A DNA stretch of 64,000 bases, from the NCBI GenBank assembly GCA_010206225.2, contig VIQU02000023.1, forward strand, positions 1 through 64,000, read 5' to 3'. A model generated the notes under the pieces. It worked only from the letters and a program-made list of their open reading frames with translations, did no database searches and was not told where the DNA came from. The translations under genes were made by a program, and so were the position numbers. The DNA comes from Lachnospiraceae bacterium MD308. Its GTDB lineage: Bacteria > Bacillota > Clostridia > Lachnospirales > Lachnospiraceae. Shown one piece after another: positions 22,204 to 57,615 of the stretch. The first letter of the stretch is position 1, and every line of letters starts with the position of its first letter.

Positions 22204-23462
22204 TTACCCCTTAAAGCCAAATGTTGTGATCAAGGTGCTTACCTCGCCAATACCTCGCCCAAGCACAACGATACAGGTGCCTGATTCATCCAAAATTAAA
22301 ATCTGCGGGACACGCTGGAAATAAGTACTGTTGTTATCCTTGACTGTTTCAGTATGGATAACATTTCCCGATGCTGTATCATAAATATTTATTGTTACGC
22401 TGGCTTCTCCCAAAATGGAAGCAGCAACATATTTCCCTTGCTCAGAGCAGAAAACCCCGTCTTTTCCTTCGCTGCTGCTTGAGAATGTAATCTTTTTTCT
22501 GTATTAGATGCAGTATCAAACATTAGCAGCGTTCCATTATTTTTGTTAAAGCTCTGGGGCATGACAAGTAAGTTCCCTCCCTTTTGTACTTCTTCACCAT
22601 CCACTTCATAGTCGGCTTTTTTTGTGATACTAAGACTTGCATTGTCTGTAGATACTGTTCCATAAACAGAAACTCCATCCCCGCCATTAGAGCTTATTCC
22701 CATGCCTACATAAGTTAAAGTTTTATCTCCCGTAAATGCAAGACTATCCATCGTTGCAATCTCCATATTATTTGCCCTGCCATTTTCGGAATAGTTCAGA
22801 ATGGCATGTACCTTTTGGGAAGAAGTATCATAGAGATAAAGTCCTTGTAATCCGCCGAAAGCGATTTGTTTTCCGTCCTGTGAAATGGCGACACTCGCCA
22901 TTTGGAGAACAGAATCATCATTTAGCAGCCCACTAAAGGAAATTGTATTCTTAACAACAAAATCCTTATTTAATAGGTATCCTTTTATTCCATTACTGCT
23001 TTGTGCCGTTGCAAATGAGTCCGTGCTGCCGCCGCTATTTTCTTCACCGACAATGAAATACCCGTCCGAATAAGGCTGCACACATAACTCATTCAAAAAA
23101 ATATCCGCACTTGCTATAATCTCGCTTTTCCCAGTATCATAAAGATAGAGCTTATCTGCTGCAACAATAATCCGATTGCCATCAGCGTAATAACAGCCGC
23201 TGACCTTTCCAGAGAAAGCCGATCCATTCACTGTGCCAACATCCATAGTATTTTTATCTGTATCACTATTCTGTGGGTTGGACTTATTATTGCCGCTGCT
23301 TTCACTTCCTGTTTTTTCCGATGTGTTATCTTCTTCGGATTGTGGCGCGTCTATGGAGATTCCGTTTTCAGAACTATTCACATTTTCCTGACTGTTACCA
23401 CAAGCTGACAGATTAAGAGCAAAAGCAAGTATAAGCATAATGCACATGAATTTCGTTTTCAT
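22204..23462 (-). pseudogene. Propeller-like lipoprotein, frameshifted in a poly-A run
   Basis: From the ATG at 23462 the product begins with a lipobox signal (MCIMLILAFALNLSAC) and a Ser/Asn-rich linker, followed by repeated four-strand segments (DGNRIIVAADKLYLYDTGKS; GKQIAFGGLQGLYLYDTSS) like a beta-propeller. The frame ends at 22395, but one frame over the same domain continues (GEASVTINIYDTASGN) to 22204. One missing A in the run at 22492-22497 explains the break: with it the reading is seamless. This is either an assembly or sequencing slip, a slippage-controlled gene, or a recent mutation. Located beside the exporter ATPase. Confidence 0.75.
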
Positions 23463-32830: not shown

Positions 32831-33267
32831 TCTATAAGTCCCCCTTTCAAACATGGGTAAAAGGTTAATAGTTATAAAGGGGCTGTGATCGGACGGTTAG
32901 CAGCATAACCTCACGGGAGTTTCACCCCTGCATGGTTCTCATGCAGCCCTACCCATTGCCTGCGACGCTTTGAACGCTCGGACTGTGGCGATAAGGGAGT
33001 ATCATTATATATTCTGCGCTGTCGTCGCCCGCAAGCTGCTAAACTTGCTCCCCGGCGTGGTGTTGGTCGCTCGGCTGTCCCGGCAGGGAAAGAAAACCCC
33101 GCCGGATAGCGTCGTGGCGCACCCGCCGTATGGCTCGGCGCAAAAGGGACGTATCCGATCTGCCCTATGCTGCGCCGCCGTTATCTTGCGCCGCTTTCTT
33201 TGTCAAGGTTCAAAAAGCTCTGATGTGCCGCACCTACGGAAAGGGGAACATAGGCAGCGGCTTTACA
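32831..33267. other. Non-coding regulatory stretch upstream of xis
   Basis: About 440 GC-rich bases between xis and the ORF8-like gene. The plus strand is open across most of it (32970-33521) but with no ribosome site, and the frame runs into the opposite gene, so I treat it as non-coding. A minus-strand TTGACA at 33201-33206 with a weak -10 at 33178-33183 could drive xis-int. A short pairing GCATGGTTCTCATGC (about 32931-32945) lies before xis. Confidence 0.4.
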
Positions 33268-38333: not shown

Positions 38334-38425
38334 CGTAGCAAGCATAGGAAAAGAGTACCCTTTTCCGTATTTCTGCCCGCCCTGTCGGTCAGAAATTGCT
38401 TGTTGGGAAGTGTCCCAAACCCTCT
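38334..38425 (+). repeat. Three-hairpin module, copy A (oriT or leader candidate)
   Basis: Hairpin 1 (38346-38365) is the near-palindrome GGAAAAG-AGTACC-CTTTTCC. Hairpin 2 (38370-38395) has a TTTCTG/CAGAAA stem. Hairpin 3 (38403-38418) is TTGGGA-AGTG-TCCCAA. Outer parts 38334-38369 (36 bp) and 38396-38425 (30 bp) recur exactly, inverted, at 47584-47619 and 47518-47547. It lies 27 bases before mobC, where origins of transfer of MobC/relaxase systems usually are. Confidence 0.8.
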
Positions 38426-38451
38426 ATGAGAACGGAAAGGAGCGAAAAACC

Positions 38452-38781
38452 ATGAACGGACGGAAAAGGACGGTACAGGTCAAATTCTATGTGACAGAGG
38501 AAGAACGGAAATTGATTGAGGAAAAAATGAAGCTCGTCCCCACAAACAACATGGCGGCATATCTGCGCAAAATCGCCATTGACGGGTACATTATCCAAGT
38601 AGACCACACGGACATAAAGGCAATGACAGCGGAGATACAGAAAATCGGGGTGAATGTCAATCAGATCGCACGCCGCGTAAACGCGACGGGGAACGCCTAC
38701 AAAGAGGATATAGAGGAAATCAAGGGGGTGCTTGCGGAAATATGGCGGTTACAAAGATTAAGCCTGTTAAAAGCACTTTGA
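38452..38781 (+). CDS. mobC: MobC-like relaxosome protein
   Basis: 109 residues from the ATG at 38452 (GGAAAGGAG). Short ribbon-helix-helix-like start (RKRTVQVKFYVTEEERKLIE) and a C-terminal motif IGVNVNQIARRVNATGNAY, the hallmark of MobC proteins that help the relaxase nick oriT. It overlaps the relaxase by 40 bases. Confidence 0.9.
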   Translation: MNGRKRTVQVKFYVTEEERKLIEEKMKLVPTNNMAAYLRKIAIDGYIIQVDHTDIKAMTAEIQKIGVNVNQIARRVNATGNAYKEDIEEIKGVLAEIWRLQRLSLLKAL

Positions 38782-40094
38782 GCAAAGCCCTTGACTATAT
38801 CGAAAACCCGGACAAGACGGACAATCAAATGCTCATATCCTCTTTCGGGTGCAGCTATGAAACGGCAGATATTGAGTTTGGCTATACCCTTTCGCAAGCG
38901 CGGGATAAGGGGAACAATTTAGCCTTTCACTTGATACAGTCCTTTGCGCCGGGGGAAGTGGACTATCAGAAAGCCCATGAGATCGGGCGGCAGCTTGCCG
39001 ACGCGGTAACAAAGGGGCAGCATGAATATGTACTCACGACGCACATTGACAAGGGGCATATCCATAATCACATTATTTTCTGCGCGGTCAACTTCGTAGA
39101 TCATCACAAGTACGTTTCCAACAAACGGACGTATTACGGCATACGCAACATGAGTGACAAGCTGTGCCGGGACAACGGGCTTTCCGTCGTCGTCCCCGGT
39201 AAGGGCAGCAAGGGAAAAAGCTATGCGGAGTACCAAGCGGAGAAAACGGGGACAAGCTGGAAAGGCAAGTTAAAGATTGCCGTGGACGCGCTCATTCCCC
39301 AAGTTTCCAGCTTTGAGGAACTATTGCAGCGGTTACAGGCGGCGGGCTATGAGATCAAGCCGGGAAAATATGTGTCATGCCGCGCACCGGGGCAGGAACG
39401 GTTTACCCGCCTAAAAACCCTCGGCGCAGATTATACAGAGGAAGCCATAAAAGAACGGTTAGCGGGCAAGCGCACACGCGCCGCCAAAGCTCCAAAGGCA
39501 GAGCGCAAAGGCGTTAATCTTCTCATTGACATTGAGAACAGTATCAAGGCGCAACAGAGCCGGGGCTATGAACAGTGGGCGAAAATCCACAATCTGAAAC
39601 AGGCGGCAAAGACTATGAACTTCCTTACCGAAAATAAAATCGAACAGTACGCCGATCTGCTCACCCGGATAGAGGAAATCACGGCAGCAAGCGAACAGGC
39701 GGGGGACAGCCTAAAGGAAGTGGAAAAGCGTCTTTCGGATATGGCGTTGCTTATTAAGAACGTCACTACCTACCAAAAGACAAAGCCCTTCTATGAAGCC
39801 TACCGTAAAGCCCGGAACAAGGAGAAATACCGGGCAGAGCATGAACGGGGTATTATCCTCCATGAAGCGGCGGCAAAGGCACTAAAGGCGGCGCAAATCG
39901 GCGGCAAGCTCCCCAACGTCCCCGCCCTGCAAGCAGAGTATGAAAAGCTCCAAGCGCAGAAAGAAAGCCTTTACGCCGACTATGGCAAGCTGAAAAAACA
40001 GGTACGGGAATATGATATTATCAAGCGGAACATAGACAGCATTTTACAGACGGAGAAAAAGCTGGAACGGGAAAGACAGACAGAGCGCGAATAA
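38742..40094 (+). CDS. Relaxase/mobilisation nuclease (MOBP-type)
   Basis: 450 residues. The nuclease domain (1-~200) has the candidate Tyr in SKALDYIENPDKT (about 18) and the metal-binding triad HIDKGHIHNHIIF (about 105-117), then NKRTYYGIRNMSDKLCRDNG. The C-terminal half is a long helical region. It nicks oriT, stays bound to the 5' end and leads the T-strand to the coupling protein. It is transcribed opposite to almost all other transfer genes. Confidence 0.93.
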   Translation: MAVTKIKPVKSTLSKALDYIENPDKTDNQMLISSFGCSYETADIEFGYTLSQARDKGNNLAFHLIQSFAPGEVDYQKAHEIGRQLADAVTKGQHEYVLTTHIDKGHIHNHIIFCAVNFVDHHKYVSNKRTYYGIRNMSDKLCRDNGLSVVVPGKGSKGKSYAEYQAEKTGTSWKGKLKIAVDALIPQVSSFEELLQRLQAAGYEIKPGKYVSCRAPGQERFTRLKTLGADYTEEAIKERLAGKRTRAAKAPKAERKGVNLLIDIENSIKAQQSRGYEQWAKIHNLKQAAKTMNFLTENKIEQYADLLTRIEEITAASEQAGDSLKEVEKRLSDMALLIKNVTTYQKTKPFYEAYRKARNKEKYRAEHERGIILHEAAAKALKAAQIGGKLPNVPALQAEYEKLQAQKESLYADYGKLKKQVREYDIIKRNIDSILQTEKKLERERQTERE

Positions 40095-40154
40095 CGTAAT
40101 ACTATTGCATTTTGAATAATTCTATTTGGGGTAAGTATGAGATAGCAATAAATG

Positions 40155-40184
40155 TTGTTGCTGTATTTGGAAAAGTGATATAAT
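40155..40184 (+). promoter_or_regulatory. Promoter of the DUF2971-like gene
   Basis: TTGTTG at 40155-40160, 18-nt spacer, TATAAT at 40179-40184. It gives the cargo gene its own transcript within the element. Confidence 0.5.
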
Positions 40185-40245
40185 AAATCTTTAGTAAGGA
40201 ATAGTGTTATGTAATATTTATTAAACATGGAAAGGATAGATTTAT

Positions 40246-40986
40246 ATGTACGAAAAACACGAACAATTATTTGATTTAGATGAAGAATGTACTTTATGGA
40301 AGTATATGAATTTTTCAAAATTTATCAACATGTTGAAAGGAAAACTATATTTCAATCGGTTGGATAATTTTGAAGATGTATTTGAGGGAACATTTCCACA
40401 ATTCAATGTAGAACATAGGAAAGATGTGTATGGAAATGTAATTATACCTCAAAATACTTATGATGCCTTAGAACAGATGATGAAAAAGTATATATATGTG
40501 TCATGTTTTCATAAAAGTGAATATGAAACTGCATTTATGTGGAAACAATATGCTGATAATGATGGTATAGCAATAAGAACAACATCAGAGAGATTGAAAA
40601 AGTCTTTTGATAAAACTCCAGTAGCTATACACATAAGTGCTGTCAAATATATGGATTACAGTAAAGAATTTATGCCCGAAGGAAATGGATTATATTTAGG
40701 ATTACATAAAAGAAAAAGTTTTGAGCCTGAAAGTGAGGTTAGATGTATTTATATGAAAACCCCCACAAGTAAACCTGATCCTGCTAATCCGTCCGACACA
40801 ATTATTGATCCAAGTGAAAAGACACCATATGGAGAATATATAGATATCGACTTAGAAACGTTAATAAAGGAAATATATATATCTCCGTATGCAGCACCTT
40901 ATATTAAGGAAAATGTAGACTTAATTGCAAATAAATTTAACATTACTGCAAAAGTGATTCAGTCAAAGCTTTTCATGCTGAATTAG
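40246..40986 (+). CDS. DUF2971-like protein (cargo)
   Basis: 246 residues, AT-rich. The features of the DUF2971 family are seen: an opening WKYMNFSKFINMLKGKLYFN, the DNFEDVFEGTFP block, YVSCFHKSEYETAFMWKQYA and the acidic/aromatic middle. The biochemical role of the family is unknown; members are often found alone in mobile elements and near defence genes. It has its own promoter and terminator, so it is a self-contained insertion between relaxase and the leftward accessory genes. Confidence 0.75.
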   Translation: MYEKHEQLFDLDEECTLWKYMNFSKFINMLKGKLYFNRLDNFEDVFEGTFPQFNVEHRKDVYGNVIIPQNTYDALEQMMKKYIYVSCFHKSEYETAFMWKQYADNDGIAIRTTSERLKKSFDKTPVAIHISAVKYMDYSKEFMPEGNGLYLGLHKRKSFEPESEVRCIYMKTPTSKPDPANPSDTIIDPSEKTPYGEYIDIDLETLIKEIYISPYAAPYIKENVDLIANKFNITAKVIQSKLFMLN

Positions 40987-41025
40987 ACTATAAAAATGGC
41001 TCAAAATATTTGTTTAGAAAAAGGC

Positions 41026-41068
41026 TGGGACGCGGTAGCTACCACATAGCCACCGTGCCCCGGTTTTC
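41026..41068 (+). terminator. Terminator after the DUF2971-like gene
   Basis: GGGACGCGGTAGCT pairs with AGCCACCGTGCCC (short bulges), then TTTTCTT. It isolates the cargo gene from the leftward block. Confidence 0.6.
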
Positions 41069-41190
41069 TTATGGGTGCAGAGATTGGATTGTTACGCAAT
41101 AGAACGGCGTTTTCAGGGGTAAAGGTATAAATTCCTTGCTGCCTTATTTTCCCGCCCGGAAAGCCGCATAAATCAAGGCTTATTTCGCCC

Positions 41191-41556
41191 CTATCGCGTC
41201 ACATTCGCCCGCATTTTCCTCATGCGCTCGGCGGTCTGTCTGCGGGTGATACGCTTCCGGCAGTCCGGGCAGTAAATAGCCCGGTTGGAGATGGAAGCAA
41301 AAGGCGCACCGCATACACTACAACGGCGCATATCCTCCGCATGGTAAAGCTCGGCGTACAGCTCCTTATCTGCGGGCAGTACCGCGATACGGAACCATTT
41401 ACAGAGCAGGGAATAGGAAATGAGCTGTGGGCATACGCAAGTGTCCCCGTCATCAAGCAAGATACAGTTTCCGCTATCATAATTGCAGCACGTCCGGCGT
41501 ACAAGGGCGTTGACTTTCCGGCTTTGGGGCGGCGTAAGCCGCTTGATCTCGCTCAT
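41191..41556 (-). CDS. Cysteine-rich VLP-type protein
   Basis: 121 residues. Two Cys clusters: RRTCCNYDSGNCILL...CVCPQL and CSVCGAPF...YCPDCRKR, the second a zinc ribbon. This matches the Cys-rich VLP family seen in Tn1549-like elements, of unknown role. It overlaps the previous gene by 4 bases and ends the leftward accessory operon. Confidence 0.85.
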   Translation of the reverse strand: MSEIKRLTPPQSRKVNALVRRTCCNYDSGNCILLDDGDTCVCPQLISYSLLCKWFRIAVLPADKELYAELYHAEDMRRCSVCGAPFASISNRAIYCPDCRKRITRRQTAERMRKMRANVTR

Positions 41557-41774
41557 ACCTCGTCGGCGGGGTAAACGGCAAGCCCCGCAAACTCCGCTTC
41601 GGTCATGCGCCCCACTTTGGCAAGGGTGCGGGCGGCAAAGTCCCGCATTTCCCCGTCCATAAAGGGCAGCGCGGCGTTCATAGCCACCACAAGCCCCTCC
41701 TTGCTGCCTGTCATGTAGATACTTAAAAGGTTGGTTTCCTCTACCGTGAAATTGTTATATTTGTTCATGCTCAT
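41553..41774 (-). CDS. Transposon-transfer assisting protein (TTRAP-like)
   Basis: 73 residues, FTVEETNLLSIYMTGSKEGL with later LPFMDGEMRDFAARTLAKVG. This is the short TTRAP family of conjugative elements, helical and soluble. Overlaps by a few bases both neighbours, so translation is coupled along the block. Confidence 0.8.
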   Translation of the reverse strand: MSMNKYNNFTVEETNLLSIYMTGSKEGLVVAMNAALPFMDGEMRDFAARTLAKVGRMTEAEFAGLAVYPADEV

Positions 41775-42727
41775 ACCTCCAATCCGTGATCTTTCCTTTT
41801 TGCCGCTGCTTTCTTTGGGGCGGTTCTCTTTTTATCCTGTGCAAGCTGCGCCCGAACAGAGGGGCGGGGCTTCCTTATCTGCCTGTCCCGGTTCTCGTCC
41901 TTTCCGATCAGCGCGTATGTGCCGTGCCTGTCCTTGATCTGCGAAAAGGAAAGTGTCTTATAGGGCAGCATAGAAAAAAGGCGGTCGGTGTCCTTTGTGG
42001 TAGCAATCTGCGTAAAGTAGGGGGACAGTTCCACCATGAAATGAGATTTATCCGGGCTGTTCGGGTCGCTTAACTCTTTTATTTTCCCTACAATGCGCCG
42101 TGCTTCCGTTTCGATCAGCCCGTCGCGCAATGCTGCGGTATGCGTTTCCAAGTCCCCCGGAACCGCCGATTGCTCCCGGCTGCGCCTTTCCTCCCGTAAC
42201 AGAAATTGCAGGGCTTCCGGGTCATTGGGGATTGCTTCAAAGCGTTCAAACTTCCCAAGCTGCGGATTGGGGGAAGCGTCAAAGGGTCGCGCCGCTGGCT
42301 GCTCCCGTTCCCCATGCTCATAGATAAGCATATAGTTATCAGCGGGTAATGCCTGTTCGGTGACGTGCTTATAATGCTGCTGGTAGTCCAGCTCATAGAG
42401 ATTGCCCTTGATCTTCCCGTCCTGTATGCCTGTAAGCTCCACGGCATAGGCAAGTACCCTGTCGCGGGTCTGTTCCCCGTAAAACTTCCATGTGTTGTGT
42501 TCCCGCGTGTCTTTCAGAAAAGCGTCGCGCTCCTTAATACAGCACGTCCCGGACGGGCGGGAAAACCACAAAAGCATTTTATCCCCGGCATTAGGGCTTT
42601 CTGCTGCCCGCTTTATAATCTCTTTGTCAATGTCAAAATCACTCTGATAAAAAGCGGTGTTCTGCTTCATGATCGCTTCAAGGGAAGCGGTCACGTCCAC
42701 ATTTTCAAATTTATTTAATTTCCCCAT
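41771..42727 (-). CDS. ICE accessory protein with RAQL tail
   Basis: 318 residues with no enzyme motif I recognise. N-terminal half has ITASL-type helices and ERDAFLKDTREHNTWKFYG; the middle is DUF-like (VELTGIQDGKIKGNLYELDY). The last 35 residues (KPRPSVRAQLAQDKKRTAPK) are basic and match the tail of the large protein encoded next door (KKPSIRAQLKADKERAAQKK). Conserved in Tn1549-like elements at this position. Role unknown. Confidence 0.75.
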   Translation of the reverse strand: MGKLNKFENVDVTASLEAIMKQNTAFYQSDFDIDKEIIKRAAESPNAGDKMLLWFSRPSGTCCIKERDAFLKDTREHNTWKFYGEQTRDRVLAYAVELTGIQDGKIKGNLYELDYQQHYKHVTEQALPADNYMLIYEHGEREQPAARPFDASPNPQLGKFERFEAIPNDPEALQFLLREERRSREQSAVPGDLETHTAALRDGLIETEARRIVGKIKELSDPNSPDKSHFMVELSPYFTQIATTKDTDRLFSMLPYKTLSFSQIKDRHGTYALIGKDENRDRQIRKPRPSVRAQLAQDKKRTAPKKAAAKRKDHGLEV

Positions 42728-42729
42728 AA

Positions 42730-45700
42730 TCAGCTCCTTTCCAAGTCCTGTGACTTATTCCTTGCCTGTTTCTTCTGCGCCGCCCGTTCCTTGTCGGCTT
42801 TGAGCTGCGCCCGGATAGAGGGCTTCTTTTCCGGCTTTTTCCCCGGTTTCGCTTCCGTTCCCTGTTCCTTTTCCGCTTTCAGTGCGGCGGCATACTCGGC
42901 AAGGGAGATCTGTTCGCCGCTTCTTGCCTTTGCTTCCAGCTCGTCGGCGGTAGGGGTGGGCGTATTGTTGATGATACCGTCAAAATTATTGTCGTTCTGT
43001 TCGATAGCGTCCTCGACGTGCTTTAAGGGGTTTGTCTTTTCCGGCGGTTCTGCGGCGACTGCAAACGCCTGTGTCCCGTTCCCCATAATGAGATACTTCC
43101 CGTCCTCCGATGTATGGTGAAGCCCGTACCCGGCTTCTTTCATCTGCTCGACGGTCATATCGGTTACAGAAAAGCTCCCCCGTGGCGTTCTGATCTGCTC
43201 CCCGGTCATGCGGGTATCGGGGGTAAGCTGCGGTGTCTGCTCCTGTAAAAACTCCGGCACTTCCTTATAGCCGAAACTGTCAACATAATGCGCCGTGTCC
43301 TCCCCGTTCTGATGAAGCACCACTATATCCGATACGGAAAGGCTGTGTCCCTTAAAATCTTTGGGGTGGTCGATATTGAAGCGGGTATAAATATCTTCAA
43401 GGGAAGTCCCCGGCGTAAGCTCTGCGGCATAGATCAGATTATAATTCGCCGCTTCCACGGAAAGCCCCGCCGCCTGTAAGCGGTCGTAAGGCTCAAAATG
43501 GTAGTCCCGCATACCGTCCCCGTCCTTTAGCTGGTAAATGGTAAAAGTGTCTTTGTCCGGCTCTTTTTTGTCGGCGGTCTGCTCCGGCGCGTCCTGTCCC
43601 GGCTCGGCGGCGGTCTGCGCTTCCTGTGCCTTTGCATAAAGGTCTTTCACATCGCCCTGTGTCAGCTCCCCGGTTTCCAGCTTCCCCAAAAGCTCCCGGC
43701 ACTTCTCCGGGGTTCCCGTGTAGAGAATATCCCCCAGCTTCGCCATGCCGTTATCCTGTGCCACATACTCCTGCAAGAGATAGCTGTTTTCCGGGCTGTC
43801 GCTGTATGGGTTCTGCCGCACCTTGTAAAAGGTTTCCGGCGTGGAAGCGTCCCCCGGTTCCGCGCCCTGTGTTTCCTCCTGCGGCTGCTCCGGGGCTGCG
43901 GCTTTTTCTGCGGCGGCTTCCTGCCTTGCCCGTTTCTGTAACTCGGTGGGGCGTTCCCCGGTAAGGGGCTGTATGCACTTGATACAATCGGCGGCATAGA
44001 TCGCATTGTCGTTTAACTGCCGCTGCCATGCTTCCGCGCTGGGCGCATAGCGGAAGCCGTTCCCTTTCAGTTCCTCCCGGATTTCCTTATCCGGCTTTTC
44101 GTCAAAGAAAATCTGCAAGCGGTTATCCGCTGTGTTGGCTTCCACACGTCCCCCGTCAAATTCCCAGCCCACATATCCAAGCTCTTTCCTCCGGGTAAGG
44201 GCAGTAATGCGGTTTTTTAATCTGCGTATCTCCGCGTTGTTGTTGGATAGCTGGTAGCTCTCAAAGGGTTTCGGGTTCGCCCGGTAGCTGCCGGACATGG
44301 ACGCTTTCAGCTTTTCGATCTGTTCCGGGGATAAGTGGGGGCAGCCGTCAAGGGTCTTATTCTTTCGGTAATAGGCGTTGACCGCTTTCATGGTTTCCTG
44401 TGCCTGTTCCAGCTTTGCAAGTTTGCTTTCCAGCTTAGAAACGGCGTTCGGGTCGTCGGCACTGATACCGCCCATGCCGGTACTGCGGATTTTATCAAGC
44501 AAGCCCTGTATCTCCCGGTATTCCTCCATGTTCTTATCTGCGGCGGCGTTCTGCTTCTCCTTTTTGCGTACAGGGAAATTGCTTCCCCCGGCAATCATGA
44601 TCGACGGGACGCGGGCGGTGATCTCATAGCCTTTATTCATGTTCGCCGCCAGCTTCCGGGCGTAAGCGTCAAGCAGCCCGTCAATCTTTTCATGGAAAGA
44701 GGGGTCAACACGCTTTTTCTGCCTTGCTGCAATCTCGGCGGCTTCGTCTACATAGTGGCGGTATTCTGCCGTTGCGCTTCCGGGCTTGTAATCGGAAAAG
44801 CTGATCGCTTCCTTTGCGCGTCGGGCGGCGTTCTCGTTGATCGGGTAATATGTAACCGTTGTTTCCGTCGGCTCCGGGGTGGAAGTCTGCGCTGCTTCGC
44901 TGGCGGGCGGCTCTGCCTGTTCCGGCGTGTCTGCTTTTTCAGAAACAGGGCTTTCCGGCTCCTGCGGCTTTTCCTGTGCTTCGGGTTCTCCCGGCTCCTG
45001 CGGTTCGGCGGTCTGTGCGGTTTCCGGCTCCGGCGCGGCGTAAGGCTCATACCCATTAGCGGCGTATTCCTCCACGGTCATTCCTGCGTCTGCCGCTTCC
45101 TGTGCGATTTCCTCCTTGACGTGTTCCTTGTAGGCTTCCAGTTCCACGTCAAAATCCCTAAGCTGGGGGACGGGCGGCAAGTTGTATTCGCCTTGATTGA
45201 CAAGCCCCCGGCACTCGGAAACATAGGCTTGTATGGCGGTATGGTAGGCGGTTTCCGTAGGTGTCAGATTGTCCCCGGCTTGCAGGGCTTCCCCGGCGAT
45301 ACGCTCCATTTCGGATAAATTACAATGCAGTTTCAGATAGGGGATAAACTCATTCAGCAGCATTGCCCGGTGTTCCTTGTCGGCTTCCAGTGCTTCCCTG
45401 CCCTCGTTGCGCAAAAGGTAATTTTCCCATTCTTTATCGTTCAGATAATAGGTATGGTACTGTTCGATATGCTCCACAAGGGAACCGTCCCCGTCGCCCA
45501 AGTCCTGCCGCCCCTCGTAGTGGTCGGGCTGTCCGTTCATCACATAATCAATACGGAAAGCGGTCTTGTCGTAGCCGGGTCTTGCAAGGTTGGCTTCGTC
45601 CAATTCTGCGATAAGGGTATTTGCACGGGACAGGGGGATTGTTTCGCCCTCCCGTAGCTGGCTGCTTTCACTCCAAAGGATTGTGACGGTCGGCTCTGCG

Positions 45701-47409
45701 GCAAGGTCGGGTGTTGGCTCTTTTTCCGCTTCCTGTGCTTTTGCGGCTTCCCGTTCTTTTTGCAGCTCCGCAAAGTGTCCGTCAATGCTGTTGATGATCT
45801 CGGCGGCGGTGGCGCGGATTGTTTCAAGGGAACTTTTCAGCTCCGCAAGCTCCCGCCCGCTGCTCCACCCGGCGACGTACCCAAAGGAATAGTCGGACGT
45901 GTCAAGCCCATAGTGCTGGCACACGGTATAGGCGATACTTTCCGCCTGTACCTCGCGGGTTCGGCGGTCGGGTCTGTCCGGCTGTTCCTCCTGCGGGGCG
46001 TTTAAGTCAATGTCGTGCAGCTTCGCATGGGCGATCTCATGGATAGCGGTCTTTAGGTTCTGAAGCTCGCTCATTCCCTCGTCTATGGCAATCCGTTTTT
46101 CCTCCAAGTGGTAGTAGCCGTGTGCTGTCCCCTCGATCTTCTCAAAGCCCATAGGAACGGGAGAGGTCTTTTCCAGTGCGGCGAAAAAATCCTCGTATTT
46201 TTCCACGTCCCCGGTCAGCTCATTTGCGGAAAGGCTGGGAAGCTCCCGCCCCTCGGTCTGCGACACGTCGAAAACGGCGACGACTTTATAGGCGGGGATT
46301 TGGATTTCCTTTGTTTCCGTGACGGGCTTCCCGTCTTTGCCGATCACCGTCTTTCCCGTCTGCGGGTCTTTCTTTTCTACCTCCTGCCGGATTTTGTAAG
46401 GCGACGGGGCAAGTATGCGTATGCCTTTTTCCCCGCGCATTACGTTCCGTCCAAAGTTATTTTTCCATGCGTTAAATCCGGCGATAAGGGAAGCGTCGGG
46501 CTTCTGCATGGCGATCAGCAGCGTATTGTTGAAGCTGTAATTATGGAACTTTGACATGACTTGCAGATATTCTTTGTAGCGTTCGCTGTCAAACAATTCC
46601 GTGATACCCTGCTCCAAGCGGTCTGTGATCTCTTTCAGCTTTTCAGCGGGCTTGTCGGCGGTGAGAATGATCGGGTTGACCGGGCGCGGCGGTGGCGGGG
46701 AACCTGTCGGCGTTCCCGGCTGGGGTTCCTCCTGCTCCGGCGCGGCTTCGTCCTTTTCCAGCTTATCCGGGGCAGAACGTTCCGGCTCCGGGAAACTCAT
46801 TACCTTGTATTCCTTTGGTATGTCGCTTTCGTGCCCGTTGTACCACTGTGAAAAAGTGTTGCCGTTGTTGTAGATATAGCCCTGCTCGGTAAACTGTCCC
46901 CGGTCTTTCTTTACAGCGTCCCGCCCGTATTCCTCGTACTTGAAATACTTCTTTGCTTCTTCGGGCAGCTCCAATTCGTCCAGCTCGTCAATGAGGTAAA
47001 AGCCATAGTCGGCTTCGGTTCGGACAGCGGGGTATATCCAGTAGCAGTCAAGGTTTTGTGCAAGGTTGATAAGGTCTTTCACGCTCCCGGCGTGTTCCCC
47101 CAGCGTTACCGCCGCCGTGAATTTATCCCGGTCGCCGTCGCCCTGCATTTCCAAGAGCTTTCCAAGATAATTCAGCTCGTCAATGGTGCTGCCCTGTACC
47201 ACGGAAAGCGGCACGTCAAAGGGGTAGGCTTCTGTATTGGAAAAGCCATTGATGAAAAAATCCTGCGGGTTATCCGCTGTAATGCCGACGCTTTTCATAG
47301 CCGCGTGAAGCTGCTCCGTGGTGGTCGGCATGGAAAGCCATTCGCCGCCCGGTTGCCCGGTTTCAAAGCGGCTGCGGCTGTCAATTAAAACTGAAAATGT
47401 TTCGCTCAT
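42730..47409 (-). CDS. Giant polyvalent protein: ArdA antirestriction, ArdC-like, YodL and DUF4316 domains
   Basis: About 1559 residues from the ATG at 47409 (GAAAGGAG). In order: an ArdA-type antirestriction domain (about 1-205, FSVLIDSRSRFETGQPGGEW; acidic DNA mimic), Pro-rich linker, ArdC/LtrC-like domain (about 255-395, HNYSFNNTLLIAMQKPDA), zinc protease-like AIHEIAHAKLHD (about 460), an LPD-type domain (VTILWSESSQLREGETIPLS), Pro/Glu linker (about 850-920), a helical domain, YodL (FTIYQLKDGDGMRDYHFEPY), DUF4316 and the basic RAQL tail. Such proteins enter the recipient with DNA to counter restriction. Preceded by hairpin module copy B. Confidence 0.88.
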   Translation of the reverse strand: MSETFSVLIDSRSRFETGQPGGEWLSMPTTTEQLHAAMKSVGITADNPQDFFINGFSNTEAYPFDVPLSVVQGSTIDELNYLGKLLEMQGDGDRDKFTAAVTLGEHAGSVKDLINLAQNLDCYWIYPAVRTEADYGFYLIDELDELELPEEAKKYFKYEEYGRDAVKKDRGQFTEQGYIYNNGNTFSQWYNGHESDIPKEYKVMSFPEPERSAPDKLEKDEAAPEQEEPQPGTPTGSPPPPRPVNPIILTADKPAEKLKEITDRLEQGITELFDSERYKEYLQVMSKFHNYSFNNTLLIAMQKPDASLIAGFNAWKNNFGRNVMRGEKGIRILAPSPYKIRQEVEKKDPQTGKTVIGKDGKPVTETKEIQIPAYKVVAVFDVSQTEGRELPSLSANELTGDVEKYEDFFAALEKTSPVPMGFEKIEGTAHGYYHLEEKRIAIDEGMSELQNLKTAIHEIAHAKLHDIDLNAPQEEQPDRPDRRTREVQAESIAYTVCQHYGLDTSDYSFGYVAGWSSGRELAELKSSLETIRATAAEIINSIDGHFAELQKEREAAKAQEAEKEPTPDLAAEPTVTILWSESSQLREGETIPLSRANTLIAELDEANLARPGYDKTAFRIDYVMNGQPDHYEGRQDLGDGDGSLVEHIEQYHTYYLNDKEWENYLLRNEGREALEADKEHRAMLLNEFIPYLKLHCNLSEMERIAGEALQAGDNLTPTETAYHTAIQAYVSECRGLVNQGEYNLPPVPQLRDFDVELEAYKEHVKEEIAQEAADAGMTVEEYAANGYEPYAAPEPETAQTAEPQEPGEPEAQEKPQEPESPVSEKADTPEQAEPPASEAAQTSTPEPTETTVTYYPINENAARRAKEAISFSDYKPGSATAEYRHYVDEAAEIAARQKKRVDPSFHEKIDGLLDAYARKLAANMNKGYEITARVPSIMIAGGSNFPVRKKEKQNAAADKNMEEYREIQGLLDKIRSTGMGGISADDPNAVSKLESKLAKLEQAQETMKAVNAYYRKNKTLDGCPHLSPEQIEKLKASMSGSYRANPKPFESYQLSNNNAEIRRLKNRITALTRRKELGYVGWEFDGGRVEANTADNRLQIFFDEKPDKEIREELKGNGFRYAPSAEAWQRQLNDNAIYAADCIKCIQPLTGERPTELQKRARQEAAAEKAAAPEQPQEETQGAEPGDASTPETFYKVRQNPYSDSPENSYLLQEYVAQDNGMAKLGDILYTGTPEKCRELLGKLETGELTQGDVKDLYAKAQEAQTAAEPGQDAPEQTADKKEPDKDTFTIYQLKDGDGMRDYHFEPYDRLQAAGLSVEAANYNLIYAAELTPGTSLEDIYTRFNIDHPKDFKGHSLSVSDIVVLHQNGEDTAHYVDSFGYKEVPEFLQEQTPQLTPDTRMTGEQIRTPRGSFSVTDMTVEQMKEAGYGLHHTSEDGKYLIMGNGTQAFAVAAEPPEKTNPLKHVEDAIEQNDNNFDGIINNTPTPTADELEAKARSGEQISLAEYAAALKAEKEQGTEAKPGKKPEKKPSIRAQLKADKERAAQKKQARNKSQDLERS

Positions 47410-47517
47410 TCGTTTTCTCCTTTCTTTTACGGCAGCGTTACGGAAGCTGCCCTTTTTATTGTTTCCCGGTATGCTGCGCTGCACCCGCGCTTTCTGCCAA
47501 AGTTTTTTATTTTTTCA

Positions 47518-47619
47518 AGAGGGTTTGGGACACTTCCCAACAAGCAAAATCCCCGTCCGGCGCGGCAGCGTCGAAAGGGGATTTACGGAAAAGGGTACTC
47601 TTTTCCTATGCTTGCTACG
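47518..47619 (-). repeat. Three-hairpin module, copy B (inverted)
   Basis: Read on the minus strand it is identical to copy A in the 36-bp first part (47584-47619) and the 30-bp last part (47518-47547). The middle (47548-47583) has a different sequence but again forms a hairpin, stem AATCCCC/GGGGATT. It starts 4 bases after the topoisomerase III stop and lies about 110 bases upstream of the ArdA-type gene. Confidence 0.8.
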
Positions 47620-47623
47620 GAAC

Positions 47624-49717
47624 TTATTTTTTCTTCGGTATCTCAATCTTGTAGTTTACATACTTCCCGCCTGTATCGGCTAAAACAATGCTTCCGTCGT
47701 AGGTTTTGCCTGTTTTCGGGGAATACAAGCCCTTTACATTTGCCTTGCCGGATTTTAAGAGGGCGGCGGCAATCTTCGGGGTAAAGGCAACTTTCCTTTC
47801 CTCAAAGAAACGGTCGTTTTTCCACATGGTAAAGGCGCAATCCCGGTTAGAACAGTAGAAATTTTTCTTTCCCTCATGGACGGGGCTACCACAACGGGGG
47901 CATTTCCCGACAGAGGGCTTTTCCTCCCCGCCCGTGAAAACTGCCTTGCTTTTGTCGGCGGCGGTGTTCTCCTTTACCAGCTCCCGCGTCATAGCTTCAA
48001 TGCGCTGCATGAAGTCCCCAGCGTCGGCGGCTCCCTTTGCGATCTGCGTCAGATTGTTTTCCCATTCAGCGGTAAGCATGGGAGAGGTCAGCATATCCGG
48101 CAGAATGGAGATAAGCGCGTTGCCGTTCGGGGTGGGGATAAGCTGCTTTCCCTTTCTTTCCGTAAAGCCGGACTTCACCAGCTTTTCAATGACAGCGGCG
48201 CGGGTGGCGGGAGTGCCAAGCCCCCGGCGTTCCGCGTCCGGGTCGGTGTCCTCGTTCCCGGCGCGTTCCATTGCCGAAAGCAAAGTTGCTTCGTTGTGGG
48301 GCTTCGGCGGCGTTGTGAAATGCTCCGTTACCTTTGCCGTGGGAGTTTCAAAGGTCTGTCCCTCGGTCAGCTCCGGCAGGGTGTTTTCTCCGTCACTGTC
48401 TGCGTCCTCCGGGTCGGGCTTGCCTTTCAGCGTCGCCCGGTAGCGGCGTTCAAGGTCTTTCCAACCGCCCGCAAGCACCGTCTTTCCCCGCGCCGTAAAT
48501 TCCGTATCTGCGCATGAGAAAACCGCCGTGACCGCTTCAAAGATATGCGGTTCGGCGGCAGCGAAAATAAGACGCGCCCCGGCAAGGGTGAGGATATTCC
48601 TTTCACTTTCCGGCAGCGCGGCAAGGTCGGTCTTTGCAAGCTCCATAGTGGGGATAATGGCGTGGTGGTCGCTTACTTGTCTGCTGTCAAGCGTCCGGGA
48701 AACGTCCGGGGTAAACTCCGCGCCCTCCATAAAGGGGAGCTTCCCGGACAGCATGGTAACAGTCTTTGCCGCCGTGTCCTCCATATCGTCCGTAAGAAAT
48801 GTGCTGTCTGTCCGGGGATAGGTAAGCAGCCGCTTTTCATACAAGGTCTGCGCAAGGTCAAGGGTCTGCTTCGCCGTGTAGCCGTAGATTTTATTGGCTT
48901 CCCGTTGTAAGGAAGTGAGGTCAAAGAGCTTCGGCGGGGCGGCGGTCTTTTTCTCTTTGGTGAGGGAAACGCATACCGCCTGTGCCGCTTCGCAAGCTGC
49001 TTTCAGTGCGTCGGCGTTCTTCCTGTCTGAAATCCTCTCGTTTACGGCTTCCGCGCCGGAGAAGCCAAGCCGCACATGGTAGTATTTTTCTTTCTTGAAA
49101 TGGGAGATCGCTTCGCCCCGGTCAACCAGCATTTTCAGTGTGGGGGTCTGTACCCGTCCCACGTTCAAGGTCTTGTTATACAGGCAGGAGAAAAGCCGCG
49201 TTGCGTTGATACCGATAATCCAGTCGGCTTTTGCGCGGCATAATGCGGAAGCATAGAGCGCGTCATAGTCCCGCCCGTCTTTGAGGTCAGCAAAGCCCGC
49301 CTTGATCGCGCTGTCCTCCATTGAGGAAATCCACAAGCGGCGCATGGGCTTGTTACACTGTGCTTTCGTATAGACAAAACGGAAGATCAATTCTCCCTCC
49401 CGCCCAGCGTCGCAAGCATTGACTACCTCGGAAACGTCTGCGCGGTGCATAAGCTCCTTTAAGGTCGCAAACTGCTTTCCCTTGTCGGCGGCGACGTTGT
49501 ACTGCCATTCCTCCGGCAGAACGGGCAAGCTCTCATAGCTCCATTTCTTGAACTGTTCCCCGTAGGCGGCAGCTTCCGCAAGCTCCACCAAATGACCGAC
49601 ACACCAAGAAATGAGGTAGCCCCCGCCCTCGATATATCCGTCCTTTTTCTCTTTCACCCCAAGCGCGGCGGCGATACTTGCCGCGACGCTGGGCTTTTCT
49701 GCAATAATTAGTTTCAT
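47624..49717 (-). CDS. topB: DNA topoisomerase III (TopB-like)
   Basis: 697 residues. TOPRIM at the start (LIIAEKPSVAASIAAALGVK ... CDAGREGELIFR), catalytic Tyr in RLLTYPRTDSTFLTDD (about 310), VGRVQTPTL, and a C-terminal zinc motif CPRCGSPVHEGKKNFYCSNR. Type IA enzyme acting on single-stranded DNA; carried by Tn1549-type elements, probably to resolve intermediates during transfer. Length is normal. Confidence 0.96.
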   Translation of the reverse strand: MKLIIAEKPSVAASIAAALGVKEKKDGYIEGGGYLISWCVGHLVELAEAAAYGEQFKKWSYESLPVLPEEWQYNVAADKGKQFATLKELMHRADVSEVVNACDAGREGELIFRFVYTKAQCNKPMRRLWISSMEDSAIKAGFADLKDGRDYDALYASALCRAKADWIIGINATRLFSCLYNKTLNVGRVQTPTLKMLVDRGEAISHFKKEKYYHVRLGFSGAEAVNERISDRKNADALKAACEAAQAVCVSLTKEKKTAAPPKLFDLTSLQREANKIYGYTAKQTLDLAQTLYEKRLLTYPRTDSTFLTDDMEDTAAKTVTMLSGKLPFMEGAEFTPDVSRTLDSRQVSDHHAIIPTMELAKTDLAALPESERNILTLAGARLIFAAAEPHIFEAVTAVFSCADTEFTARGKTVLAGGWKDLERRYRATLKGKPDPEDADSDGENTLPELTEGQTFETPTAKVTEHFTTPPKPHNEATLLSAMERAGNEDTDPDAERRGLGTPATRAAVIEKLVKSGFTERKGKQLIPTPNGNALISILPDMLTSPMLTAEWENNLTQIAKGAADAGDFMQRIEAMTRELVKENTAADKSKAVFTGGEEKPSVGKCPRCGSPVHEGKKNFYCSNRDCAFTMWKNDRFFEERKVAFTPKIAAALLKSGKANVKGLYSPKTGKTYDGSIVLADTGGKYVNYKIEIPKKK

Positions 49718-55299: not shown

Positions 55300-57615
55300 G
55301 TCGGCTAAGTCGGGGCGGTTACCCGCCCTTTCTCGCCTAAGAACCGTACATGAGCGTTTCCACTCATACGGCTCAAGCATTTCATCACTCTTTCGAGCGG
55401 CTCTCAAGATAGATTCGTTGGCAGTCGGCGTGAACATACGCCATATTTGCCACTTCCTCCTTGCCACCGCAGGACTTTGGTACTTTAAAGAAAATTTCCC
55501 TCTCGTCCGAAATGTCCAGTGGCATTCCACAGTGATAGCAACAGCCGTCCTGATTCTTCCAGATTAGTTTGAATCTCCCTGAAAGTTTCTTCATTCCCTG
55601 ATTGAACTTGCGTTGTTTGAAATATTCCGTATCAAGGAACGGATTGGCTGCTTCCCTTACTTTTGTGTGTCGGACAATCGGCGTATGGTCTACCCGTATC
55701 AGCTCCTTTGTGTCCGTAGCGAACACCCAGTTTCGGTTTTCCCTGCGGTGCCAATACCTCGTGGAAATCCACCATTGCCCTTTCTTCGGATGCCGCCTTT
55801 TCGCCCATCTCCACAATAACTCATAGAGAATATAGTCCAAATGTGCAAACGCTTCTGCCGCACACACAGACTGGTGGTAATTCGTCCATCCTCGGATTTG
55901 TTGGTTCAGTTTCATAATCAGCACGTCCTGATTCCATGCTTTCCCACGTTTCAGTATCGTGTCAGATAAATTCCTCACGACTGCCTGTATGGATTTCTTT
56001 GACGGCTTCACAATCAGCTTTCCTTTAAATTTTCGGAATGTCCAGCCTAACATATCGAATCCGTCGTTGATGTGGGTGACTGCCGTTTTCTCGTCAGATA
56101 ATTCCAAGCCCCTTGTTTTCAGGAAGTCTTTTATCAATTCCTTTGCTTCCAAGGCGATTTCCTCCGTTGCCGCTGTTACTACAAAATCATCAGCGTAGCG
56201 CACCAGATTGACCTTGTGGGCGTTCTTGAACCGTAAGTCCACCTTCCCAAGCCTGTTGGTGTGGAATCTGTCTGACAATACTTTCTGCATACCGTCCAGT
56301 GCCATGTTTGCAAGAATCGGTGAAATGACACCGCCCTGCGGAGTGCCGTCCTCTGTCGGGAACAGCTCCCCTTTGAAGATAAATCCCGCTTTCAGGAACT
56401 GTTTCAGAATGGATTTGTCCATAGGGATATTTTCCACTAACCATTCATGGCTGATGTTATCAAAACAGCCTTTAATGTCGCCCTCTAAAACCCATTCGGG
56501 CGATACCTTGCGTGACAATGCCGTGAAAATATATTCGCACGCGTCCTGACAGCAACGCCCCTTTCTGAAACCAAACGATTTCGTGTCGGCGGTTGTTTCT
56601 GCCACTGGCTCTAATGCAAGGGCGTACAACGCCTGCATTGCTCTGTCATACATAGTTGGAATTCCTAACGGACGTTTCTTTTTCTTAGCTTTCTTCTCGA
56701 TATAGACACGTCTTAACGGTTTTGCTTTATAGCCTTTGTCTGTCAATGATAGGACAGCCCTCATCTTCATTGCAGGCGTTGACCAGATTTCCCCGTCCAC
56801 CCCTGCGGTTTTCTTTCCTTTGTTTGTGGTCACACGCCTTACGGCGAGTGCTTTTGCATAGAACGAGTGTGTCAATAAATACTGAAGCCGCTTCACTGTG
56901 TTCCATTTCTTTTCCTGAGTTGCCTTGACAATCCTGACTTGCAGCCTATTAACTTCCTGCTCCGCTTTCTTCCAGTCGATAGTTTTCCACTGCGCAGAAA
57001 GCCGCTTGCTGTCCGATAATCTCTCAGAAACTGGCGTTTCCGTCGTTGAATTATTACCGTTCATAGGTTTACCTCCATTCTTTGCCATGAAATACCGTGG
57101 GATAAGTCTGCACCCTTTCGGGTCAGGGCAAATCTTGAACCCCTATGCCCCGCCATTACAGCAGGGCCGTTCGCTTTTTATCCCGTTCCTCTACCCTCTG
57201 TGCCATTTCTCTGCCTTACGGCTTCGATACCTTAAATATAAGGAACACATAGGGCTTACCAAGTTCCGCATAATAAATAATTGTGAATGCCTTAGACGCC
57301 ATCTTTGAGCCGGGAGGAATCATGTCCATTTGTTACGGCGTTGCGAAAGCCGCCGCAACCACCTCCGCACCTTTTGGTGTAAGTGTATCAGCCTTATTTC
57401 ACTTATTCCCTGTAACGACTCTTACAATGGTTCACTTTACATTCGTCATAGCACTCTTATCCTAACAGTACGCCCGACTTAGGCTGTCAGGTTTCCCATA
57501 TTGTCCCACAAGCTTTCCACCTGAACGTTACCATCCACGCAGATTGTGGTAGGATTACCCCAAATGGATAGGGTAGCTGACGACCAGCAATTTATTATGC
57601 GACTTCTTGTCGCAC
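55300..57615 (-). mobile_element. Group II intron inside virB4
   Basis: 2316 bases on the minus strand. The 5' end is GTGCGACAAG, the group II consensus, immediately after exon codon GAG. Domain V lies at 55341-55374 (GAGCCGTATGAG, GAAA loop, CTCATGTACGGTTC) and a domain-VI-like stem (GGGCGGG/CCGCCC) follows. The 3' end is ...AGCCGAC. It encodes its own reverse transcriptase/maturase and interrupts virB4 between Walker A and the next conserved block. Confidence 0.88.
55385..57064 (-). CDS. ltrA: Group II intron reverse transcriptase/maturase (LtrA-like) with HNH
   Basis: 559 residues from the ATG at 57064 (TGGAGG). RT domain with RPLGIPTMYDRAMQAL, VLEGDIKGCFDNISH, TPQGGVISPILANMALD and LVRYADDFVV (catalytic YADD), then maturase domain X (RGWTNYHQSVCAAEAF) and a C-terminal HNH endonuclease (CCYHCGMPLDI ... 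HADC). It drives splicing and retrohoming. All key motifs are intact, so the intron looks active. Confidence 0.95.
   Translation of the reverse strand: MNGNNSTTETPVSERLSDSKRLSAQWKTIDWKKAEQEVNRLQVRIVKATQEKKWNTVKRLQYLLTHSFYAKALAVRRVTTNKGKKTAGVDGEIWSTPAMKMRAVLSLTDKGYKAKPLRRVYIEKKAKKKKRPLGIPTMYDRAMQALYALALEPVAETTADTKSFGFRKGRCCQDACEYIFTALSRKVSPEWVLEGDIKGCFDNISHEWLVENIPMDKSILKQFLKAGFIFKGELFPTEDGTPQGGVISPILANMALDGMQKVLSDRFHTNRLGKVDLRFKNAHKVNLVRYADDFVVTAATEEIALEAKELIKDFLKTRGLELSDEKTAVTHINDGFDMLGWTFRKFKGKLIVKPSKKSIQAVVRNLSDTILKRGKAWNQDVLIMKLNQQIRGWTNYHQSVCAAEAFAHLDYILYELLWRWAKRRHPKKGQWWISTRYWHRRENRNWVFATDTKELIRVDHTPIVRHTKVREAANPFLDTEYFKQRKFNQGMKKLSGRFKLIWKNQDGCCYHCGMPLDISDEREIFFKVPKSCGGKEEVANMAYVHADCQRIYLESRSKE

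Follow-up and report, generated by a model that had tools for sequence, protein, structure and literature searches.

Two inverted copies of a three-hairpin module as a likely pair of transfer origins in a Tn1549-family element

Why should one conjugative element carry the same three-hairpin module twice, on opposite strands? The question arises in a 64,000-nucleotide stretch of Lachnospiraceae bacterium MD308 (contig VIQU02000023.1, positions 1 to 64,000; hereafter the window), which contains a Tn1549-family integrative and conjugative element. An earlier reading made from the letters alone (the sequence-only reading) had described the two copies, A on the plus strand and B on the minus strand, and had offered several roles for them: dual origins of transfer (oriTs), single-strand origins, single-strand promoters, or an RNA leader. 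Herein, we favor the first of these; the role that the earlier reading had found attractive, an RNA leader or a hairpin promoter of genes used early in transfer, is disfavored. The module is very likely an oriT. The combined statement, that the modules are oriTs of the element and that B probably serves the same relaxase as a second, inverted one, appears likely on the sequence comparisons below. That B is itself a working oriT is put forward with somewhat less assurance, as the favored but putative part of this reading.

Both copies were recovered where they had first been placed (Table 1). Hairpins 1 and 3 are identical between A and B, hairpin 2 in the middle differs, and the spacer separating the shared blocks is 26 nt in A and 36 nt in B, so the inverted duplication stood as described. 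Two perfect matches each were found in the window for the 3′ block GCTTGTTGGGAAGTGTCCCAAACC and for hairpin 1, and neither sequence was found in 100 dinucleotide shuffles with up to 3 mismatches allowed; two extra matches in the hairpin 1 scan were the same palindromes on the opposite strand. Two features had been overlooked. A closing stem, P1, is possible between GCAAGC (A 38338-38343; B 47615-47610) and GCTTG (A 38398-38402; B 47545-47541), and would enclose hairpins 1 and 2, with hairpin 3 outside, after P1. In addition, the complement of GCAAGC reads ATGCTTG|C, a nic sequence listed in a published table. Copy A sits between a helix-turn-helix (HTH) gene and the mobC and relaxase genes, which it adjoins, whereas copy B is ~9 kb distant from them, begins ~5 bases past the topB stop codon and precedes the gene with ArdA and YodL domains.

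The published table lists the Tn1549 oriT at 22239-22266, as 28 bp with the nic RYGCTTG|C, and gives the pRJ6 nic as TGCTTG|CCA (PMC7755788). By coordinates, these 28 bp correspond to GCAAGC and hairpin 1 of Tn1549 copy A within ~12 bp, on the assumption that the published record begins at the left end of Tn1549 and runs in the same orientation. The window copies A and B are identical across this mapped core (5′ arm and hairpin 1). The sequence ATGCTTG|C, matching the tabulated RYGCTTG|C, is present at A on the minus strand and at B on the plus strand, and other modules (e.g., at locus L160) carry the form tabulated for pRJ6. From the tabulated consensus and the coordinate mapping, we predict the nicks given in Table 1, which would lie on the strand opposite to that on which the sequence-only reading had set out the module (hereafter the reading strand). 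As proposed in that reading, relatives were compared by a covariance model. Tn1549 in pMG2200 (L156; boundaries at approximately record positions 8577-42391 from empty-site comparisons) has both copies, with A located upstream of mobC and B flanked by topB and the YodL gene. The hairpin-plus-nic layout is shared with the Tn1549 oriT, to which copy A would map under the above assumption, whereas the oriT as listed covers 28 bp and the conserved unit here is a three-hairpin unit of ~90 bp, accompanied by a second, inverted one.

Three tests are independent of the coordinate mapping: orientation, strand polarity, and co-variation of the copies. For orientation, 69 of 184 distinct modules had a mob gene match within 2 kb, and the hairpin 3 side faced the mob gene in 68 of these 69; the exception, L125, has its relaxase match 1.9 kb away. 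The nearest mob gene was co-directional with the module in 54 cases and opposite in 15. When modules at least 80% alike were removed, 28 of 29 still faced the mob gene, 18 being co-directional and 11 opposite. The earlier statement that each copy leads into genes in its own orientation thus holds at both window copies but not throughout the family. Since the hairpin 3 side faces mob genes whatever the gene direction, the arrangement agrees with an oriT from which the mob genes are the last to be transferred, and does not agree with a leader. TnpX-type recombinase matches within 1 kb of a module were always on the nic side (28/28).

Strand polarity was read from the imperfect pairs of hairpin 1 in 68 distinct hairpins, drawn from the 195 usable entries among 202. 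On the reading strand there were 22 A.C, 3 G.T, and 7 other imperfect pairs beside 515 Watson-Crick pairs; the p value of 1.6e-4 for this polarity is optimistic because the sequences are related, and grouping by eye leaves ~15 to 2. Because A.C on the reading strand is a G.T wobble on the complement, the predicted nicked strand seems to be the one on which folding is maintained. Hairpin 2 showed no bias (25 A.C versus 18 G.T, p = 0.36), and the hairpin 3 figure (10 A.C, 7 G.T) was not used, as several rows were misparsed.

Co-variation was measured in 11 elements, in which each copy A was compared with its own B and with the B of other elements. The identity of hairpin 1 was 0.970 to its own B and 0.802 to the others (0 of 20,000 permutations), that of hairpin 3 was 0.914 and 0.845 (9 of 20,000), and that of hairpin 2 was 0.595 and 0.574 (1,146 of 20,000). 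This set contains two pairs of close relatives (window/L230 and L214/L153). Without L230 and L153, the values for the remaining 9 elements were 0.963 versus 0.782 for hairpin 1 (0/20,000), 0.901 versus 0.825 for hairpin 3 (34/20,000), and 0.598 versus 0.573 for hairpin 2 (1,290/20,000). The sequences in these tests are related, so the permutation and binomial figures overstate independence. By copy, the identity of the middle hairpin was 0.683 (A-A), 0.643 (B-B), and 0.574 (A-B). Gene conversion should homogenize the middle segment as well; since hairpins 1 and 3 match and the middle segment does not, a shared protein is the simpler cause. We infer that a predicted protein common to both copies, reading hairpins 1 and 3, explains their matching.

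Folding and alignment bear on the structure itself. On the reading strand, the z scores against shuffles were -3.86 (A) and -4.52 (B) for RNA and -5.21 (A) and -4.73 (B) for DNA. An alignment (A1) was made of 51 modules, leaving L125 and L170 out of 53 representatives, and all 6 predicted pairs of hairpin 1 showed two-sided changes in at least one module. The invariance of hairpin 3 in this alignment arises partly by construction, as the pattern scans fixed it exactly; covariance-model matches include the forms TTAGGG/CCCTAA and CCGGGA/TCCCGG. The middle segment varies in sequence, yet in 34 of 47 clusters it folds better than at least 95% of its own shuffles (mean z -3.2), with some hairpin 2 segments in this test shortened by a misparse of hairpin 1. 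The parse succeeded for 198 of 202 entries, duplicates counted; the middle segment was shorter than 24 nt in 19 of the 198, some of which have no middle hairpin, and 3 nt separate GCAAGC from hairpin 1 in A, B, and 149 of the 198. Selection on the structure of the module, as first argued, is supported by the two-sided changes in hairpin 1 and the folding middle segments. The word "covarying", applied earlier to the middle hairpin, does not suit A versus B, where the hairpin is replaced, and describes the family better.

Taken as a mechanism, each module would be an origin of transfer of the Tn1549-family element. The relaxase and MobC of the element are the presumed binding proteins and would recognize hairpin 1, and the relaxase would cut the complement of the reading strand after TGCTTG. 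At A, the transferred strand would be the minus strand, leaving towards the integrase side; at B, it would be the plus strand, leaving towards the topB/VirB4 side. From either site, the mob-to-ArdA segment between A and B would enter last. Hairpin 3 would be a probable second protein site, and hairpin 2 a copy-specific hairpin between the two.

Paired origins have precedents. In staphylococcal plasmids of the pWBG749 system, a published account states that two oriTs always lie on opposite strands, and its authors suspected that same-strand pairs are lost by relaxase-mediated deletion (PMC4652767). If such a filter acts here, it would explain the inverted pairing of A and B. The same account describes mixed oriT subfamilies in 58 of 67 multi-oriT plasmids, whereas hairpin 1 of A and B matches here, and the present element, in contrast, encodes its own conjugation genes. 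ICEclc is one integrative conjugative element with one relaxase and the origins oriT1 and oriT2 (PMC5714925, PMC6561031). Compared by description, it is an earlier example of two origins served by a single relaxase, which is assigned to another family, MOBH. The primary source for the Tn1549 oriT is reportedly Tsvetkova et al. 2010. In the literature searched, seen in part, a second oriT is not stated for Tn1549-family elements, and that primary paper may contain one.

To see how common the pair is in elements not chosen by their modules, stretches were picked by relaxase similarity alone. A search of 295 genomes of the order gave 18 relaxase matches that scored 370 bits or more, the window's own excluded, and up to 20 kb was read around each. 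An intact module lay directly upstream of mobC in 15 of the 18; in L265 the module adjoins a different mobC match, and in L266 no module was found nearby. The topB gene was inside 10 stretches, and B lay within 400 bases after it in 6 of the 10 (L249, L250, L251, L253, L256, and L258). Both copies were intact in 5 of the 10, and all 5 pairs were convergent. Both copies are also carried by L156 (Tn1549) and by L215-L218, the latter four chosen because the pair had already been seen. Both modules were present in 12 of the 14 stretches that were 11 kb or longer and had mob and topB matches, 8 of the 14 being preselected for the pair and some elements being common to the relaxase-chosen set. By eye, the adjacent module pairs in 58 stretches were 19 convergent, 4 divergent, and 1 same-strand, that is, 23 of 24 on opposite strands; many of these stretches were fetched because of a pair, but not for its orientation. 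Further divergent pairs occur in G725 and, weakly, in L136. The second copy is common but lineage-dependent, not universal. The relaxase-based counts made us slightly less confident of two origins, and slightly more inclined to an idle B, than the preselected stretches had done.

Several observations weigh against two origins under one relaxase, beginning with the assumption and the slack in the coordinate mapping described above. The arms of P1 hardly vary, and no covariation of P1 was found in the 51-module alignment. Both strands of A and B fold well, the opposite strands having z scores of -2.55 (A) and -4.10 (B) as RNA and -5.74 (A) and -5.23 (B) as DNA. L251 has B and only a remnant of A, either from an internal deletion with the junction GGAAGTG or from assembly collapse. 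B is missing from 4 of the 10 topB-containing stretches (L259, L260, L262, and L264), which have A only. It is present with the six relaxases closest to that of the window (58-96% identical) and missing in the four at 50-56%; B may be an addition of one lineage.

These absences also favor a narrower explanation, in which A is the sole working oriT and B is either a leftover or a site where relaxase or MobC binds to regulate the ArdA/YodL operon. Control of nearby promoters by relaxosome proteins is common, and B would lie inside an operon because topB is within 400 nt on the 5′ side of 41 modules. The copy-specific middle hairpins fit this explanation too. However, in B the nic sequence is retained and hairpin 1 agrees with that of its own A, which is not expected of a leftover, and we consider this explanation unlikely. 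A bolder variant keeps both origins and has the pair send both complementary strands, A launching the minus strand and B the plus strand. The recipient would then anneal a double strand without priming complementary-strand synthesis, and the origin in use would be marked by its copy-specific middle hairpin; this variant seems quite improbable.

It is hardly probable either that the modules serve in the recipient as single-strand promoters or single-strand origins on the incoming strand. Hairpin promoters on entering strands exist in other systems, and such a promoter for early genes had been proposed here. However, with the nicks placed as predicted, on which both strand arguments depend, the minus strand entering from A is the sense strand of the ArdA gene and cannot be copied into ArdA mRNA, and on the plus strand entering from B the ArdA gene comes last. 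Moreover, with nearly all adjacent pairs on opposite strands, at most one copy per pair would be actively oriented. A cis-acting RNA leader of mobC and the ArdA gene, folded in the mRNA, is very improbable: the ArdA/YodL gene is co-directional with the module in 13/13 cases, as most mob genes are, and the module RNA folds well, but the opposite mob genes counted above, the excess of A.C over G.T in hairpin 1 on the would-be RNA strand, where tolerance of G.U is expected instead, and the lack of any Rfam match at gathering score in the 301-bp stretch around each copy speak against it. With these alternatives weighed, a pair of inverted oriTs is the explanation that we retain.

The module is widespread. 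Pattern scans recovered the 3′ block from 26 genomes out of 295 in the order, from at least 119 genome-contig stretches, and from 4 viral contigs. The covariance model, built from the 51 modules, matched at least 98 of 391 genomes of the class (E 0.01 or better) and 15 of 199 genomes sampled from the phylum (E 1e-4 or better). The window's own genome (G000) holds further modules at C94:1620-1711 (L233), where the mob match runs in the opposite direction, and at C79:35214-35314 (L234), which is without the GCTTG arm.

Other settings of the module were also seen. Tn1549 in pMG2200 carries a third, divergent module on the minus strand (L156:17295-17396, 41.4 bits). This module lies upstream of the vanB genes, its nic has the form TGCTTG|CCA, and its hairpin 1 is longer and unrelated; it is possibly the oriT of an absorbed mobilizable element. 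Four loci (L209, L210, L212, and L213) have two convergent modules separated by less than 1 kb, with a tnpV gene in the interval (matched by Pfam TnpV in L209 and L212, a similar gene in L210 and L213). TnpX-type recombinase matches adjoin the modules in L209, L210, and L213, and no mob match was found in the 13-14 kb stretches of these three. The four pairs look like oriT-only passengers. At 40 loci (e.g., L043 and L134), CACTACCTACAACACC comes after the module with 2 mismatches at most, in most cases ~40 nt past GCTTG; at the same 40 loci, the sequence left of GCAAGCATAGG differs from locus to locus, which gives the module the look of an insertion boundary. L170 was grouped with these loci.

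The features of the two copies and of the genes around them are collected in Table 1. Elsewhere in the window, two group II intron matches on the minus strand (55300-55376 and 57466-57575, within 55300-57575) flank a 567-aa open reading frame (55385-57088), which looks like an intron-encoded protein and adjoins a VirB4-like gene. A pemK RNA motif (Rfam RF02913, 61.7 bits) lies at 32911-33008 on the minus strand, near the integrase-side genes.

Table 1. Positions in the window of the module copies, their parts, and the adjoining genes
Feature	Position	Strand	Evidence
Copy A of the module, predicted nic on - strand	38334..38425	+	Sequence, repeat scans, covariance-model match
A, P1 5′ arm GCAAGC; predicted nic between 38339 and 38338 on - strand	38338..38343	-	Sequence and published nic (tabulated)
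A, hairpin 1 GGAAAAG-N6-CTTTTCC, inverted repeat adjoining the predicted nic	38347..38366	.	Folding, two-sided changes in relatives, strand polarity
A, hairpin 2 ATTTCTG/CAGAAAT, sequence variable among relatives	38369..38396	.	Folding
A, P1 3′ arm GCTTG	38398..38402	+	Repeat scan, folding
A, hairpin 3 TTGGGA-N4-TCCCAA	38403..38418	.	Repeat scan, DNA folding
mobC (NikA-like/MobC)	38452..38781	+	Pfam PF21983 1.8e-17, PF05713 1.9e-9
Relaxase (MobA/VirD2-like nuclease domain)	38742..40094	+	Pfam PF03432 1.6e-35
Large 1559-codon gene downstream of B (ArdA, ArdC-N, Peptidase_M78, YodL domains)	42730..47409	-	Pfam
Copy B of the module, predicted nic on + strand	47518..47619	-	Sequence, repeat scans, covariance-model match
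B, hairpin 3, same as A	47525..47540	.	Repeat scan
B, hairpin 2, arms AAATCCCC/GGGGATTT	47547..47584	.	Folding
B, hairpin 1, same as A	47587..47606	.	Repeat scan
B, P1 5′ arm; predicted nic between 47614 and 47615 on + strand	47610..47615	+	Sequence and published nic (tabulated)
Topoisomerase gene topB	47624..49717	-	Pfam PF01131 3.2e-112

The module is common in the class, and the elements that bear it can carry resistance genes, such as the vanB genes in Tn1549. If two inverted origins serve one relaxase, finding one oriT would not reveal the direction of transfer or the strand sent, and testing one copy would miss half of the system. Elements with the module only may then be mobilized in trans. 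Relatives with the pair, compared with those that have A only, make the contribution of the second origin directly testable.

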